From a candidate division WOR-3 bacterium (lineage in GTDB: Bacteria > Hydrothermota > Tepidihabitantia > Tepidihabitantales > DTDR01): DNA of 33,133 nucleotides. The position numbers were made by a program, and so were the translations under genes. The DNA lies in NCBI GenBank assembly GCA_039801725.1, contig JBDRVE010000014.1:6297-39429 (forward strand), written 5' to 3'. This document shows positions 137 through 20,079 of the stretch, one piece after another. The first letter of the stretch is position 1, and each line of letters opens with the position of its first letter. Under the pieces are notes generated by a model. The model searched no databases and was not told the DNA's origin. It saw only the letters and a program-made list of their open reading frames with translations.

Positions 137-1474
137 TTAAAAGCAACTGTTCTTAATCTCTTCTAATTCTTTTCCTTTTTTAAAACATTCTTGTGCTTCT
201 TCTTTTTTCCCCATTTTTTCAAGGATTTCGCCTTTATCGTACCACAATTGAGAATTATAGGGGTTTATTGTGATTGCTTCATTAATAAATCTTAATGCTT
301 CCTCTAAACGATCCATTTCTTTTAATGCTAACGCTTTACCAGAAAATAATAAATAGGAATTGATATCATACTTTAAACCTTCGTCAAAACATTGAGAAGC
401 CGTTTTCGCATCGCCCGTTTCTAAATAAAATAGTCCTAAGGAATACCAGTAATTACCAATTTTAGGATTTAGCTGAACTGCTTTTAATAGGTGATAATAT
501 GCCTTTTCTCCTTCTTTTTTTTCTAAATACAAAATTCCAATATTATGATGAACTTCGGAGGCTGCCGGATTTAAACTCAGCGCCTTTTGAAAAAGTTCTA
601 ACGCTTTTTCTTTTTCTTGAAGTTCATAATATACAACACCTTGATTAAAATATGCTTGCCAATCATTAGGATTGAGTTTGATGGCTCGTTCGTAATATTT
701 TAATTCTTCTTTAATTCTTCCTAATTTACCTAAAATATAACCTTTTGATACCAAAATTTTTGAATCATTGGGCGCTAAAGTGATTGCCTGGTTAATTAAT
801 TTTAACGCCAAATCATATTTTTTAAGTTGACAAAAAATAAAACTGAGATTTAAAAGTGTTTCAATATCATTGGGATTTTCTTCAATAATCTCTTCTAATG
901 GTTCAATCGCTTCTTCATATTTTTGTAAGGCGAGCAGAATATTTGCTTTTTCTTTTAAAATTTTTGTATCTCGGGGTCTTAATTCAAGTGCTTTGTTGAT
1001 ATATTTTAAAGCTTTTCCATAATCTTGTAATTGGAAATAAATTTGAGCCAATTGAAAATAGGGGAGAACATCGGTAGGAGAATATTTAATTGCTTTTTCA
1101 AAGGCTTCAATTGCCTTTTCATATTCTCCTCGATTGATTTGAATTATTCCTATCTCTTCCCAGCAAGCACTATTGGTGGGATCTTCTTTTAAAACTTCTT
1201 GAAAATAGAAGAGGGCTTTTTCCCAATCTTTTAACCGAAAATAAGCAAAACCTAAAGAGTATTTTGCTGAAAGGTTTTCTGGATCTAAATCAAGGATTCT
1301 TTCAAATATCTTTTTGGCATAATTAGGGTCAGAATAGATGTTAAGAAGAACACCAACTTTTTCTAAAATTGGTATGTCAGAATAATTAATATTTGCAAGG
1401 GTTTCGTCGATTTTACCATCTTTTATTGCTTTTAATAATTCTTTTGCTTTATTTATCTCTTCTTTTTCTTCCAT
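137..1474 (-). CDS. TPR-repeat protein (about 11 repeats)
   Basis: A 445-aa protein built almost entirely of 34-residue tetratricopeptide repeats, recognisable from recurrent units such as A-x-x-x-x-G-x-x-Y/L, then a Y-A/E-E/K-A-L/I core and a P-N/T-D turn, running from about residue 55 to 440. It has no signal peptide or membrane segment, so it is probably a cytoplasmic scaffold binding partner proteins. The start codon overlaps the stop of the secreted-protein gene upstream by one base (TAATG), which indicates translational coupling as the last gene of that transcript. The partner is unknown. Coupling to an exported protein hints at a role in export or assembly, but this is inference. Confidence 0.85.
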   Translation of the reverse strand: MEEKEEINKAKELLKAIKDGKIDETLANINYSDIPILEKVGVLLNIYSDPNYAKKIFERILDLDPENLSAKYSLGFAYFRLKDWEKALFYFQEVLKEDPTNSACWEEIGIIQINRGEYEKAIEAFEKAIKYSPTDVLPYFQLAQIYFQLQDYGKALKYINKALELRPRDTKILKEKANILLALQKYEEAIEPLEEIIEENPNDIETLLNLSFIFCQLKKYDLALKLINQAITLAPNDSKILVSKGYILGKLGRIKEELKYYERAIKLNPNDWQAYFNQGVVYYELQEKEKALELFQKALSLNPAASEVHHNIGILYLEKKEGEKAYYHLLKAVQLNPKIGNYWYSLGLFYLETGDAKTASQCFDEGLKYDINSYLLFSGKALALKEMDRLEEALRFINEAITINPYNSQLWYDKGEILEKMGKKEEAQECFKKGKELEEIKNSCF

Positions 1475-3714
1475 TATTCAATCATCAGGATTTTAAATTT
1501 TGAGATTTTCTCATCGGCAGTTTTTAAAAAGATAAGATAGATACCTGTTGGTAGTTTCTTATCAATATTATAGGTTTGCCAACCTTTTTTGAAATATTTG
1601 TTTTCTTTTTTTATTAACTGACCATTAAGATTGTAAATAAAAATAGTATATTCTTTATCTTTTTGCGAGTAGAATGTTATCTTTTTCTTTTGGGGAATAA
1701 TTGTTTTTCTTATTATTTCTTTATTGGAAGATTCTTCAATTGATACTTGCGGCGGATTAGGAGTAATTTTAATTACCCTTCCTTGTTTTAAACTGTCAAA
1801 ACCGCGAGAAATCTGAGTGTTATAAAGAATGTTAATAAAAGAGGTTCCGGTTAGATTTTGAAAACCAACAGTATTAGAGAGGTAGTAATTATTAGAATAA
1901 TATTGGAAAAGAATAACATTGTTACCATTAATTGTTCTTACCGTTGTATCATAAATAATAATCTGAAATTTATCCCACTGGTCTCTTGGTGAGAAATAAT
2001 GGACAGAATCCCATTCAATAATTAACCGATGATTTAAAGAGTCAAAATAATACCAAATCCCGCCACCGGTTGGTGGATAATAATCATCCCAAGAACAAGC
2101 AAGATGATTTGGTATTTGGGAAGGTAAAGGAGTGTTGGAATAATCGGCTCTCGTTGTATAACCAATTGCTGCCCAGCCATTAGAACAAATAGATATTTGA
2201 TTATAATAGGTATCATAATATTTAATTAAACCAAAATGACTTGGTAAATCAATTACCCTTGTTTCATCATCACCTAAATCTAATCGCACACCTTGGTTTC
2301 TTATTTCAACCCATTCATAATTTGGACATTCGGAATAGAAAGTATCAATATCTTCATAAACCCAATAAAAACCATCAGTTACTGGATCGCAAGGCCTTAA
2401 TTCGCCAACCGTTATAGTAAATGGTAGAATTTGGGAAAAATTATCGCCATAAATTTTTAAAGTACATGGTATTGGAGTTTCTGGTATAATTCTTGGGCTA
2501 GCATAAACATAATAAAAATCAGATAAATTCATACTACTATCACCTGCTGGAATATTTCCGTAGACACCAATTGAATCAATTATTCTTAAACTGGTATCGG
2601 TTGATTTTAATATTGCATAAATATTATAACCATTTCCGTAACCGATATTTCTTAATTGAATAGCAATTGCGCACTCTTCACCAGGGTCTAATCTTCGATT
2701 ATTATTTCCCGGTGGTGTATCCAAGGCATAAACAATTCCAGTTGTAAAAAGGGCAGTTCCCACTTTTAAATAAACCGAAGAAAGCCAGACGCTATCTAAT
2801 TCGTCGTAACATCTTAAAATAAAATTAATCCGATAACCATTTGTGCAACTATTGGCGACTCGGAAAAGATAACCTTCTTCACCGGTATATGCTGAATCTT
2901 GTGGTAAAATATTACCGAAACTTTTTATACTATCAATCAAAATAATATTGGGATCAGGAAATTGTAAATTAAGTTTACCAACCACATTATTAATTTGTCG
3001 TGAAGAATAATTTCTTACCCAGAGAGGTAGGTTTATCTCTTCACCAGGATTAATAATTCCGTCGCCATTACCTCTTGGTGGATTATCGTCAATTAACCAA
3101 CGATGAGCAACAACACCAAAAACAGGAATTAAAGAAATATCATCGGCGAAGACCTTCGCCCAACAATGACCTGCTCAACAACCGTTTGTAGAATCAAGAA
3201 GAACAACTCTTATTTTTTTAACAGCAAAAGGATTAATTCCTGGTAAATTGGCAAATTCTTCAAAAATATTTAAATTATAATCGTTCCAAAGAGTATCGGT
3301 AATTTCAATAAGATGTTGATTAGAAGTATTGGTCAAAGGACAATGGGGAGTTTTATAAATAAACATTGTACGACCAAGATAATTCTCGCTTTCATCAAGA
3401 TATTCTAAAACTAATGAGGAAAAAGCAAAATAAGGAGCCGAAGGGTTAAGTTCTTGCGCCAACAATTTACCACTAAAAGAAAAATTCAAATAAATATGGG
3501 GAATCTCAATTGTTTGAAATATTTTTATATAATCAGCATCATATTTATAGAGATAAACTTCGTTATCTGGGTCAGGATGATGATAAGGAGATACATTTAA
3601 ATCAGAAGTTCCTGTTCCTCTACTAATCTGCCAATAATTTAGACTATCCTCAAAGTTGCCATTGGGTATTAATTGTTGATTAAAAATAAAACTAACTAAT
3701 AAAAAATAAATCAT
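1474..3714 (-). CDS. Secreted multidomain protein with in-frame UGA; candidate selenoprotein
   Basis: One continuous frame of 746 codons, with a single UGA at codon 180 (3177-3175). In order: a short hydrophobic signal sequence (residues 1-13); a jelly-roll, carbohydrate-binding-like domain (about 15-195, beginning with NGNFEDSLNYW and ending FADDISL); a linker domain with NGDGIINPGEEI (about 210-330) followed by a second PGEE-type domain; a domain with ICSNGWAAIG and LACSWDDYYP (about 440-650) of the type found beside secreted peptidases; and a Por/type IX-like sorting tail (about 675-746, IYNLNGQLIKK...LPTGIYLI). The jelly-roll domain itself spans the UGA, so the two halves belong to one protein. 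The ATG at 3714 follows GGAGAT. If UGA is read as Sec, the local motif is C-U-A-G-H-C. If it is a nonsense mutation, the gene is a pseudogene. See the hairpin at 3145-3160. Confidence 0.7.
3145..3160 (-). promoter_or_regulatory. Candidate bacterial SECIS hairpin downstream of UGA
   Basis: On the mRNA strand the bases GGCGAAGGTCTTCGCC form a perfect 6-bp stem (GGCGAA/TTCGCC) with a GGUC loop, or a 5-bp stem with an AGGUCU loop. The loop begins 20 nt after the UGA, within the 16-37 nt range usually quoted for bacterial SECIS elements, and it has G among its first two bases as required. CAU (3168-3166) and AUG (3143-3141) could add a lower stem across an asymmetric internal loop. As I recall it, the E. 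coli fdhF apical loop is also AGGUCU. The hairpin is 11 of 16 G/C in a strongly AT-rich gene. SelB binding is inferred, not shown. Confidence 0.55.
3175..3177 (-). other. In-frame UGA, candidate selenocysteine codon
   Basis: The minus strand reads GGT TGT TGA GCA GGT CAT TGT TGG, that is G-C-stop-A-G-H-C-W. The frame is open for 179 codons before and 566 codons after this single stop. UGA terminates other genes here (for example those ending at 5452, 5198, 10148, 16767, 24429, 28507 and 32970), so the code is not reassigned genome-wide. A Cys (TGT or TGC) at this place in homologs would support selenocysteine or a single-base mutation, whereas Trp would argue against Sec. Confidence 0.55.
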
Positions 3715-18746: not shown

Positions 18747-20079
18747 ATGTATTTTTTTATAATATTTTCAATTTTTGCTCAGTATCTTGAAGCCCAAATT
18801 GTTGTGGGGAAAAATCCTTGTGAAGTTTGTTATAATCCAATAAATCATAAACTTTATGTAAGTATAGCAGAAGCATCAATTATTATTGTTGATGGCTTTA
18901 ATAATGAAATCACTGACTCAATTATCGGGCTTTTTAACAATCATTCCTTGGCGTATAATTTTTTAAACAATAAATTGTATTGCGCTTATGGTTCTGATTC
19001 AATAGCAGTAATTGATGGCGCTACAAATCAAATAATTAAAAGAATATGGAGTGCTAATACTGGTTTGGGGCGTTCACTTTATAATCCAATAAATAATAAA
19101 ATTTATTTTGCTAATCATAATAGTAATAATGTTTCTGTTATTGATGGAGAGAGATAGTTTAATTAAAATTATTGAAGAAGGAATTGGTGAAGGTCCTATT
19201 CATTTGTGTCTGTCAGAACACAATAACAAAATCTATTGCGTCAATTGGGGTGGAAATGTTTCAGTAATTTCCAGTGATTTAGATAGTGTAATTAATGTGA
19301 TTTCTGTTGCTCCGTGTTCCCATTCTATGTGCTATAATTTAAGAGATAAAAAAGTGTATGTAGGCCACTTGTATAACCCTGTTGTTGAAATTATTTGTAC
19401 CGAAGGAGACACAATTATTACCACAATAAATGTTGGCTCTGACATTGTACCATTTGGTATATGTTATGATTCCATTCATAATAAAATTTATATTAGCACT
19501 GGGGCTAATTATGTAGTAGTTATTGATGGTGAAACCAATAATATAATTGATGTAATCTATTTTTATGGTTGGCCATGGATTGTATTTTTTAATCCACTGA
19601 ACAAAAAAATATACGTTAGTTATGAAAATCCTTGGATTCCTGAAAGCTCATTTGTTGGAATAATTGATGGCAGCACAGGTAGAAAAATAGATTCTATTTC
19701 TCTTTATAGAAGAGGGGCTTATTATCCTTTCTGTCTTAATCCGCAAGAAAATAGGGTTTATATACCCCATGCTTGGTGCGATGCGAATGGAAATCCAATG
19801 GATTCAGTAATTTCAATTATTAAAGATAATAGTGAAATATCAGAAAGTTCAACTTGCTTTTTTGAAATAAAATATTTTCCTAATTCTTTTAACCCCGAGT
19901 ATATTATTTTACCTTTTTGGATTGAAAATATAGAAATCTTTGAAATTTCTGGAAAATTAATTAAGAAAGAAAGAAGAGGAAATATAATTTTTCTCAAAAA
20001 TTTAAAAAGCGGAGTTTATTTTGTTAGAATGTCTAGTTTTAAAAAAGAATATATTAAAAAATTATTAATAATCAAATAA
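18747..20079 (+). pseudogene. Secreted YVTN-type beta-propeller protein, frameshifted
   Basis: Two frames together encode one protein of about 444 residues. Part one (18747-19157) has a signal peptide (MYFFIIFSIFAQYLEAQ) and three repeats of the N-K-L/I-Y-V/F... V-I-D-G type. The frame then ends at TAG (19155) inside a (GA)4 run at 19147-19154. Part two continues in the +1 frame from the same spot with further propeller repeats (YCVNWGGNVSVIS, KIYISTGANYVVVIDG and others) and a Por/type IX-like sorting tail (IEIFEISGKLIKKERRG...LKSGVYFVRM). Adding one GA joins them as VIDGERDSL. An ATG at 19144 overlaps the stop and could allow re-initiation, but without a signal peptide. Probably a surface or secreted binding protein before the shift. 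Confidence 0.7.

Follow-up and report, generated by a model that had tools for sequence, protein, structure and literature searches.

Here, we describe a gene in a 33,133-nucleotide stretch of contig JBDRVE010000014.1 from a candidate division WOR-3 bacterium (assembly GCA_039801725.1; hereafter the window) that almost certainly encodes a selenoprotein, with an in-frame UGA read as selenocysteine (Sec). Within the literature that we searched, the protein belongs to a new selenoprotein family, in which known decoding is combined with a new fold context and setting, a Sec that has no cysteine counterpart and a sorting tail of the type IX secretion system (T9SS). As a whole, we strongly favor the explanation that this is an exported selenoprotein, probably sorted by the T9SS; that it acts in an extracytoplasmic selenol/thiol relay we hold only tentatively.

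As the initial annotation of this DNA had described, the gene forms one frame of 746 codons in which the only break is a UGA at codon 180. The frame ends in a TAA stop and lies on the minus strand, which that annotation omitted, and an AGGAG motif resembling a ribosome-binding site precedes its ATG. UGA serves as an ordinary stop in the window because 10 of the 30 other genes counted end in TGA, which bears out the earlier view and rules out wholesale recoding. UGA being a normal stop in this genome, standard annotation would end the gene at codon 180, and what follows would be the remains of a pseudogene or a second gene. The comparative data refute this reading and leave it a negligible probability: the UGA is common to about 100 genes, the encoded domain is continuous across it, the hairpin that follows shows compensatory changes, and purifying selection is equal on both sides. 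Against a same-genus homolog (locus L090, 84–85% identical), whose Sec aligns with that of the window gene, the ratio of nonsynonymous to synonymous substitution rates (dN/dS) is 0.112 before the UGA and 0.117 after it. Judged by this sequence comparison, the protein part downstream of the UGA is real. Together, UGA conservation and dN/dS rule out a pseudogene or sequencing error, and a local sequencing error is also excluded because the UGA with its hairpin turns up independently across tens of assemblies.

We examined 147 genomes of the phylum. A 90-residue query retrieved many homologs, each with exactly one in-frame TGA, and a profile of the N-terminal domain (built from 42 rows) gave, as counted from the match table, 110 matches with an in-frame TGA in 50 genomes, with up to nine domain copies per genome. 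In all 88 distinct genes that we read directly, the UGA occupies the same column as in the window gene. Only one clear match spanning this column lacks TGA (L172, at G105:C1:2500103-2500666); it has proline at the Sec position, and the canonical stem is gone from its place. A different hairpin, GACUC-GGUCA-GAGUC, lies a few bases upstream in L172. One marginal match, in G055 (E 1.7e-6), also lacks TGA. The initial annotation had proposed examining homologs for Sec or Cys here: UGA is present almost without exception, and the Sec/Cys pairs it had suggested looking for did not appear, as no profile match spanning the Sec column in the 147 genomes carries Cys. By its sequences the family is Sec-only, apart from the one Pro variant. 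A pattern scan of viral contigs returned no match.

Downstream of the UGA, the transcript would form a perfect hairpin with a 6-base-pair (bp) stem and a 4-nucleotide (nt) GGUC loop, resembling a selenocysteine insertion sequence (SECIS). The initial annotation described this hairpin correctly as perfect, GGUC-looped and fitting the bacterial SECIS (bSECIS) model, and placed it 20 nt after the UGA; that distance holds for the first base of the loop, and the stem starts at 14 nt. The bSECIS model, with which the Escherichia coli fdhF-type element is grouped as the comparison SECIS, specifies a loop of 3–9 nt, a stem of 4–16 bp, a G in the first two loop positions, a distance of 16–37 nt from the UGA and a minimum free energy of at most −7.5. 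The window hairpin satisfies every constraint (G first in the loop, 6 bp, 20 nt, and −8.9 kcal/mol by RNAfold of the 20-nt hairpin). It thus shares with the general model a small apical loop with G, a 6-bp upper stem, the 20-nt spacing of the loop and a free energy below −7.5, and its family differs from the model in the very uniform GGUC loop and in a stem that covaries with the encoded protein.

A comparably strict hairpin is found at 5 of the 995 TGA triplets of the window. When this protein is recoded according to the codon usage of the window, a comparable one arises in 5.7% of cases. A single copy of the hairpin is by itself suggestive only; its conservation in about 100 genes is, as sequence evidence, decisive. 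In 85 of the 88 genes read, the hairpin has a GGU loop at a spacing of 17, 20, 23 or 26 nt from the UGA; the remaining three carry GGCGGA-AGUU-UCCGCC, with G still in the second loop position. In a gap-free alignment of 65 genes, 99.7% of cells are paired and 32 cells have changed on both sides. None of 500 shuffles, which ignore relatedness, reaches the hairpin's double-change count or covariation score, and control structures slid along the alignment score far lower. Despite this neglect of relatedness, it is difficult to account in any other way for changes that occurred on both sides of the stem in distinct lineages. Pair 21–30 joins two third-codon positions (GC in 58 genes, AU in 6, UA in 1) and includes synonymous-by-synonymous changes; pairs 22–29 and 23–28 vary jointly with the protein (AKVFADD, ARVLADD, AEVSADD). 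Because the pairs covary at synonymous positions as well as where the amino acid changes, the hairpin is no by-product of a protein motif. This pattern indicates that it is under selection as RNA.

The window's genome (a 1.63-Mb assembly, 97% complete) contains the full set of selA, selB, selC and selD that the initial annotation had named as the genes to look for. SelA (568 bits), SelB (377 bits) and SelD (317 bits) exceed their cut-offs, and so does tRNA-Sec, with 70.8 bits where the threshold is 47. The selD gene (L086, G000:C8:19983-20891) itself contains an in-frame UGA, within CPGU, a feature shared with known Sec-containing SelD; a hairpin-like stretch follows this UGA. Across the 147 genomes, domain and selB occur together in 45, the domain alone in 5, selB alone in 16 and neither in 81 (Fisher p 1e-18, uncorrected for relatedness). 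The five domain-only genomes are mostly fragmented or incomplete assemblies, and both domain and selB are absent from G100, a genome of the same genus that is 98% complete. Records of close relatives are labeled candidate division WOR-3 (listed by NCBI as phylum Caldifarciminota), Stahlbacteria and a few other names. Beyond WOR-3-labeled records, the UGA with its hairpin also occurs in contigs labeled Eisenbacteria and in records labeled Thermoanaerobaculales and Desulfuromonas, and selB exceeds its cut-off in four of the five genomes tested from such records. In four genomes (G067:C48, G076:C1, G085:C233 and G094:C59) selB lies within about 2–8 kb of a jelly-roll selenoprotein gene.

The inserted residue is not identifiable from sequence alone, and a suppressor tRNA or near-cognate read-through might place another amino acid, such as Trp or Cys, at the UGA. 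We consider this very improbable, given a hairpin at SECIS distance that follows SECIS loop rules, full Sec machinery, the strong association with selB and, within the gene row, another UGA family similar to a known selenoprotein. Rather, SelB with Sec-tRNA-Sec would decode UGA-180 as Sec, directed by the adjacent hairpin, and the read-through product would be the full-length 746-residue protein.

Export of this product is very likely, and the type IX system probably sorts it. The C-terminal sorting tail named in the initial annotation is supported by TIGR04183 (26.1 bits, cut-off 23), with PF18962 just below its cut-off (26.4 bits against 27), and the genome encodes the T9SS component SprA (290.9 bits summed, cut-off 200).

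The Sec-bearing domain is confidently predicted to adopt a jelly-roll β-sandwich like that of carbohydrate-binding modules (CBMs), whereas selenoproteins typically have a thioredoxin fold. The AlphaFold2 model (42 homologs; mean pLDDT 92.4, pTM 0.87) runs on across the UGA and places Sec in the loop before the last strand. Its nearest Foldseek neighbors are CBM16, CBM61, CBM4 and CBM11 (E about 1e-7 to 1e-5), with TM-scores of only about 0.4–0.5 by query length. In sequence the likeness is weak: the window domain has no Pfam match, the best family member reaches E 0.01 (short of significance for any CBM sequence family), and CBM_4_9 matches weakly in 6 of 42 members. A sequence search of the PDB returned no strong hit (best E 0.014). 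The window domain also carries Sec, of which no case is known in CBMs. Outside this N-terminal domain the full-length model is poor (pLDDT 56.8 overall), and the remainder looks, in the model, like spacer domains followed by the sorting tail. In some relatives the domain stands nearly alone, and L179 resembles a lipoprotein.

Invariant or nearly invariant positions of the domain include the N-terminal NG-FE, PDPD-E, Q67, W143, E153 and the ADD near Sec. Of 80 aligned domains, 52 have Cys directly before Sec, and the others often have Gly, Asp, Thr or Ser there; a Cys at residue 125, in a neighboring loop, is present in 61 of the 80, and a subgroup with SGU-GTP has three cysteines around residues 95–104 instead. 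Thus, Sec is the loop's one constant feature, around which possible thiol partners vary between members. We found no fixed UxxC or CxxU (U, Sec) in the domain family, and the fold is not that of thioredoxin-like selenoproteins.

These features allow more than one role for Sec. It could bind a metal or metalloid, as a cell-surface trap or sensor of soft metals, with no redox catalysis. Vicinal Cys-Sec is common in the family, CU motifs occur in the catalogued metal-related selenoproteins SaoL, HgcA, SaoC and MbdU, and metals dominate the predicted Sec ligands in a 2026 review. CU is not universal, however (SGU, DDU and NGU occur), and the neighborhoods examined showed no metal-resistance gene, containing thioredoxin-like and Fe-S proteins instead; such a ligand role seems to us rather unlikely. 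Sec could also be structural or ligand-binding in a glycan-binding domain, for example in a stabilizing selenenyl-sulfide, for which the CBM-like fold and the frequent Cys-125 would provide the setting. Cys is normally enough for a structural bond, yet no Cys version turned up in this family, which keeps Sec despite the cost of a SECIS, and genomes without selB mostly lack the domain. We consider a structural or ligand-binding role unlikely.

Gene neighborhoods point toward a third role. In 19 genomes the jelly-roll gene adjoins an Omp28-like gene with UxxC (UPTC, UGSC or similar), usually directly downstream and on the same strand, and a different hairpin recurs in these Omp28-like genes, 22 nt past their UGA. 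The row is longer at loci including L096, L104, L106, L109, L114, L120, L121, L124, L130 and L138, where genes for a UxxC lipoprotein, a TlpA-like protein, a DUF6029 protein and a NapH-like membrane 4Fe-4S protein follow in full or in part. The UxxC lipoproteins (UPFC, UPYC, UGFC, UIFC) lie just downstream of jelly-roll genes and may form a distinct selenoprotein family. The two UxxC families are only distantly similar to NF045500 (the Omp28-related selenoprotein, catalogued as GOS_C with UxxC), scoring 38–58 bits against a cut-off of 200. Like the window protein, NF045500 is exported, contains a UGA and occurs in related settings; it is an Omp28/thioredoxin-like protein with UxxC, in contrast to the jelly-roll fold without UxxC described here, and the jelly-roll domain family does not match it.

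Because an Omp28-like UxxC gene adjoins the jelly-roll gene in relatives, with TlpA-like and 4Fe-4S genes downstream at several loci, we infer an extracytoplasmic selenol/thiol redox relay. The jelly-roll protein would be its surface component, acting with Omp28-like UxxC selenoproteins, joined at some loci by TlpA-like and membrane Fe-S partners, such that some substrate is reduced. Sec may lie near one or more Cys in most relatives. Several points weigh against this reading. Sec at residue 180 is deduced rather than directly detected; the nearness of Cys is one of sequence, not of distance in the model; the 80 aligned domains have no fixed redox motif, as the residue before Sec and the other Cys positions vary; and the lack of Cys homologs removes the usual Sec/Cys argument for catalysis. 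Further, in the window's genus the gene sits between a group of FAD oxidoreductase, BFD, ferredoxin and GYD genes and a tetratricopeptide repeat (TPR) gene, and not beside an Omp28-like gene, so that the assignment of redox partners relies on relatives. We therefore hold a redox relay, as against some other role, only tentatively, at slightly less than an even chance. Still more speculative is a wider, hitherto undescribed extracytoplasmic selenium redox system in WOR-3 and some Eisenbacteria-labeled genomes, in which membrane Fe-S, TlpA-like and Omp28-like UxxC proteins might pass electrons to the never-Cys jelly-roll Sec at its surface end, so that selenol chemistry would take place on a fold of the sugar-binding type.

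No known selenoprotein family accounts for the window protein. No Pfam or NCBIfam model matches the Sec domain, the 2026 catalogue of 119 prokaryotic selenoprotein families and subfamilies includes no exported jelly-roll selenoprotein with a sorting tail, and the nine new families reported by deep-Sep, all with Cys homologs, are different. Our literature search on WOR-3/Caldifarciminota selenoproteins and Omp28 selenoproteins, whose scope excluded preprints and most subscription journals, found nothing relevant. The novelty suggested in the initial annotation stands for the family, with its fold and setting, and not for extracytoplasmic selenoproteins as such: the ExtKL cytochrome, the GSU2204-type outer-membrane barrel and the FCYXU TonB receptor, all catalogued, likewise carry Sec in an exported protein. 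Their sequences are unrelated to the window protein, and none is presented in the review as a jelly-roll protein with a T9SS tail. Most selenoproteins are thioredoxin-like or metal-center enzymes that have Cys counterparts, in contrast to this large, exported, Sec-only jelly-roll family. Its discovery shows that whole families are still missing from catalogues in uncultured phyla because annotation stops at UGA. The family also provides a clean natural data set on the co-evolution of SECIS and protein, and points to an extracytoplasmic multi-selenoprotein system whose function is directly testable.

Table 1. Positions of the selenoprotein gene, its elements and associated genes (window coordinates unless a locus is given).
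Feature	Position	Strand	Evidence
Selenoprotein gene, 746 residues with UGA as Sec (almost certain)	1474..3714	minus	TAA stop at 1476-1474; dN/dS against L090
UGA codon 180, read as Sec	3175..3177	minus	In-frame TGA in 110 homologous genes, 88 read directly
SECIS hairpin GGCGAA-GGUC-UUCGCC	3145..3160	minus	Covariation in 65 homologs; sole match (E 2.3e-8) when the window's genome is scanned with R1, the hairpin's covariance model
N-terminal hydrophobic segment, probable signal peptide, residues 1-12	3679..3714	minus	Sequence; hydrophobic N-termini of homologs
Predicted Sec-bearing jelly-roll β-sandwich domain, about residues 14-198	3121..3675	minus	AlphaFold2, Foldseek
β-domain, moderately confident, about residues 321-438	2401..2754	minus	Full-length AlphaFold2 (pLDDT 69-85 across most of these residues)
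Type A T9SS C-terminal sorting domain, residues 674-743	1486..1695	minus	TIGR04183, PF18962; SprA in genome
TPR protein gene, ATG overlapping the selenoprotein stop (TAATG)	137..1474	minus	Same order at same-genus locus L090
UxxC lipoproteins	L109:8124, L121:8077, L106:8082, L096:6976, L104:8129, L120:8144, L138:7842, others		

The TPR gene, judging by its overlap with the selenoprotein gene, is probably co-translated with it. As it begins inside the selenoprotein stop codon, its translation may depend on read-through of the UGA.

The window's genome also holds, on another contig, a second candidate selenoprotein gene, which is Omp28-like with UGSC (L006; G000:C10:44811-45560, plus strand, TGA at locus position 2716) and has the hairpin CCAGCA-GUG-UGCUGG. 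Elsewhere, in-frame TGA candidates include a redoxin-like protein with UALC (L131:2567-3734, minus strand) and a secreted-looking protein with UGGC (L127:4394-5492, minus strand). At L122:9184, an in-frame TGA in a gene for a repeat-rich protein is followed 34 nt later by a hairpin with a GGTC loop, possibly a chance match. Finally, at 18747-20079 on the plus strand of the window, a single β-propeller protein with a sorting tail seems to be split by a frameshift into two overlapping frames, 18747-19157 and 19108-20079.

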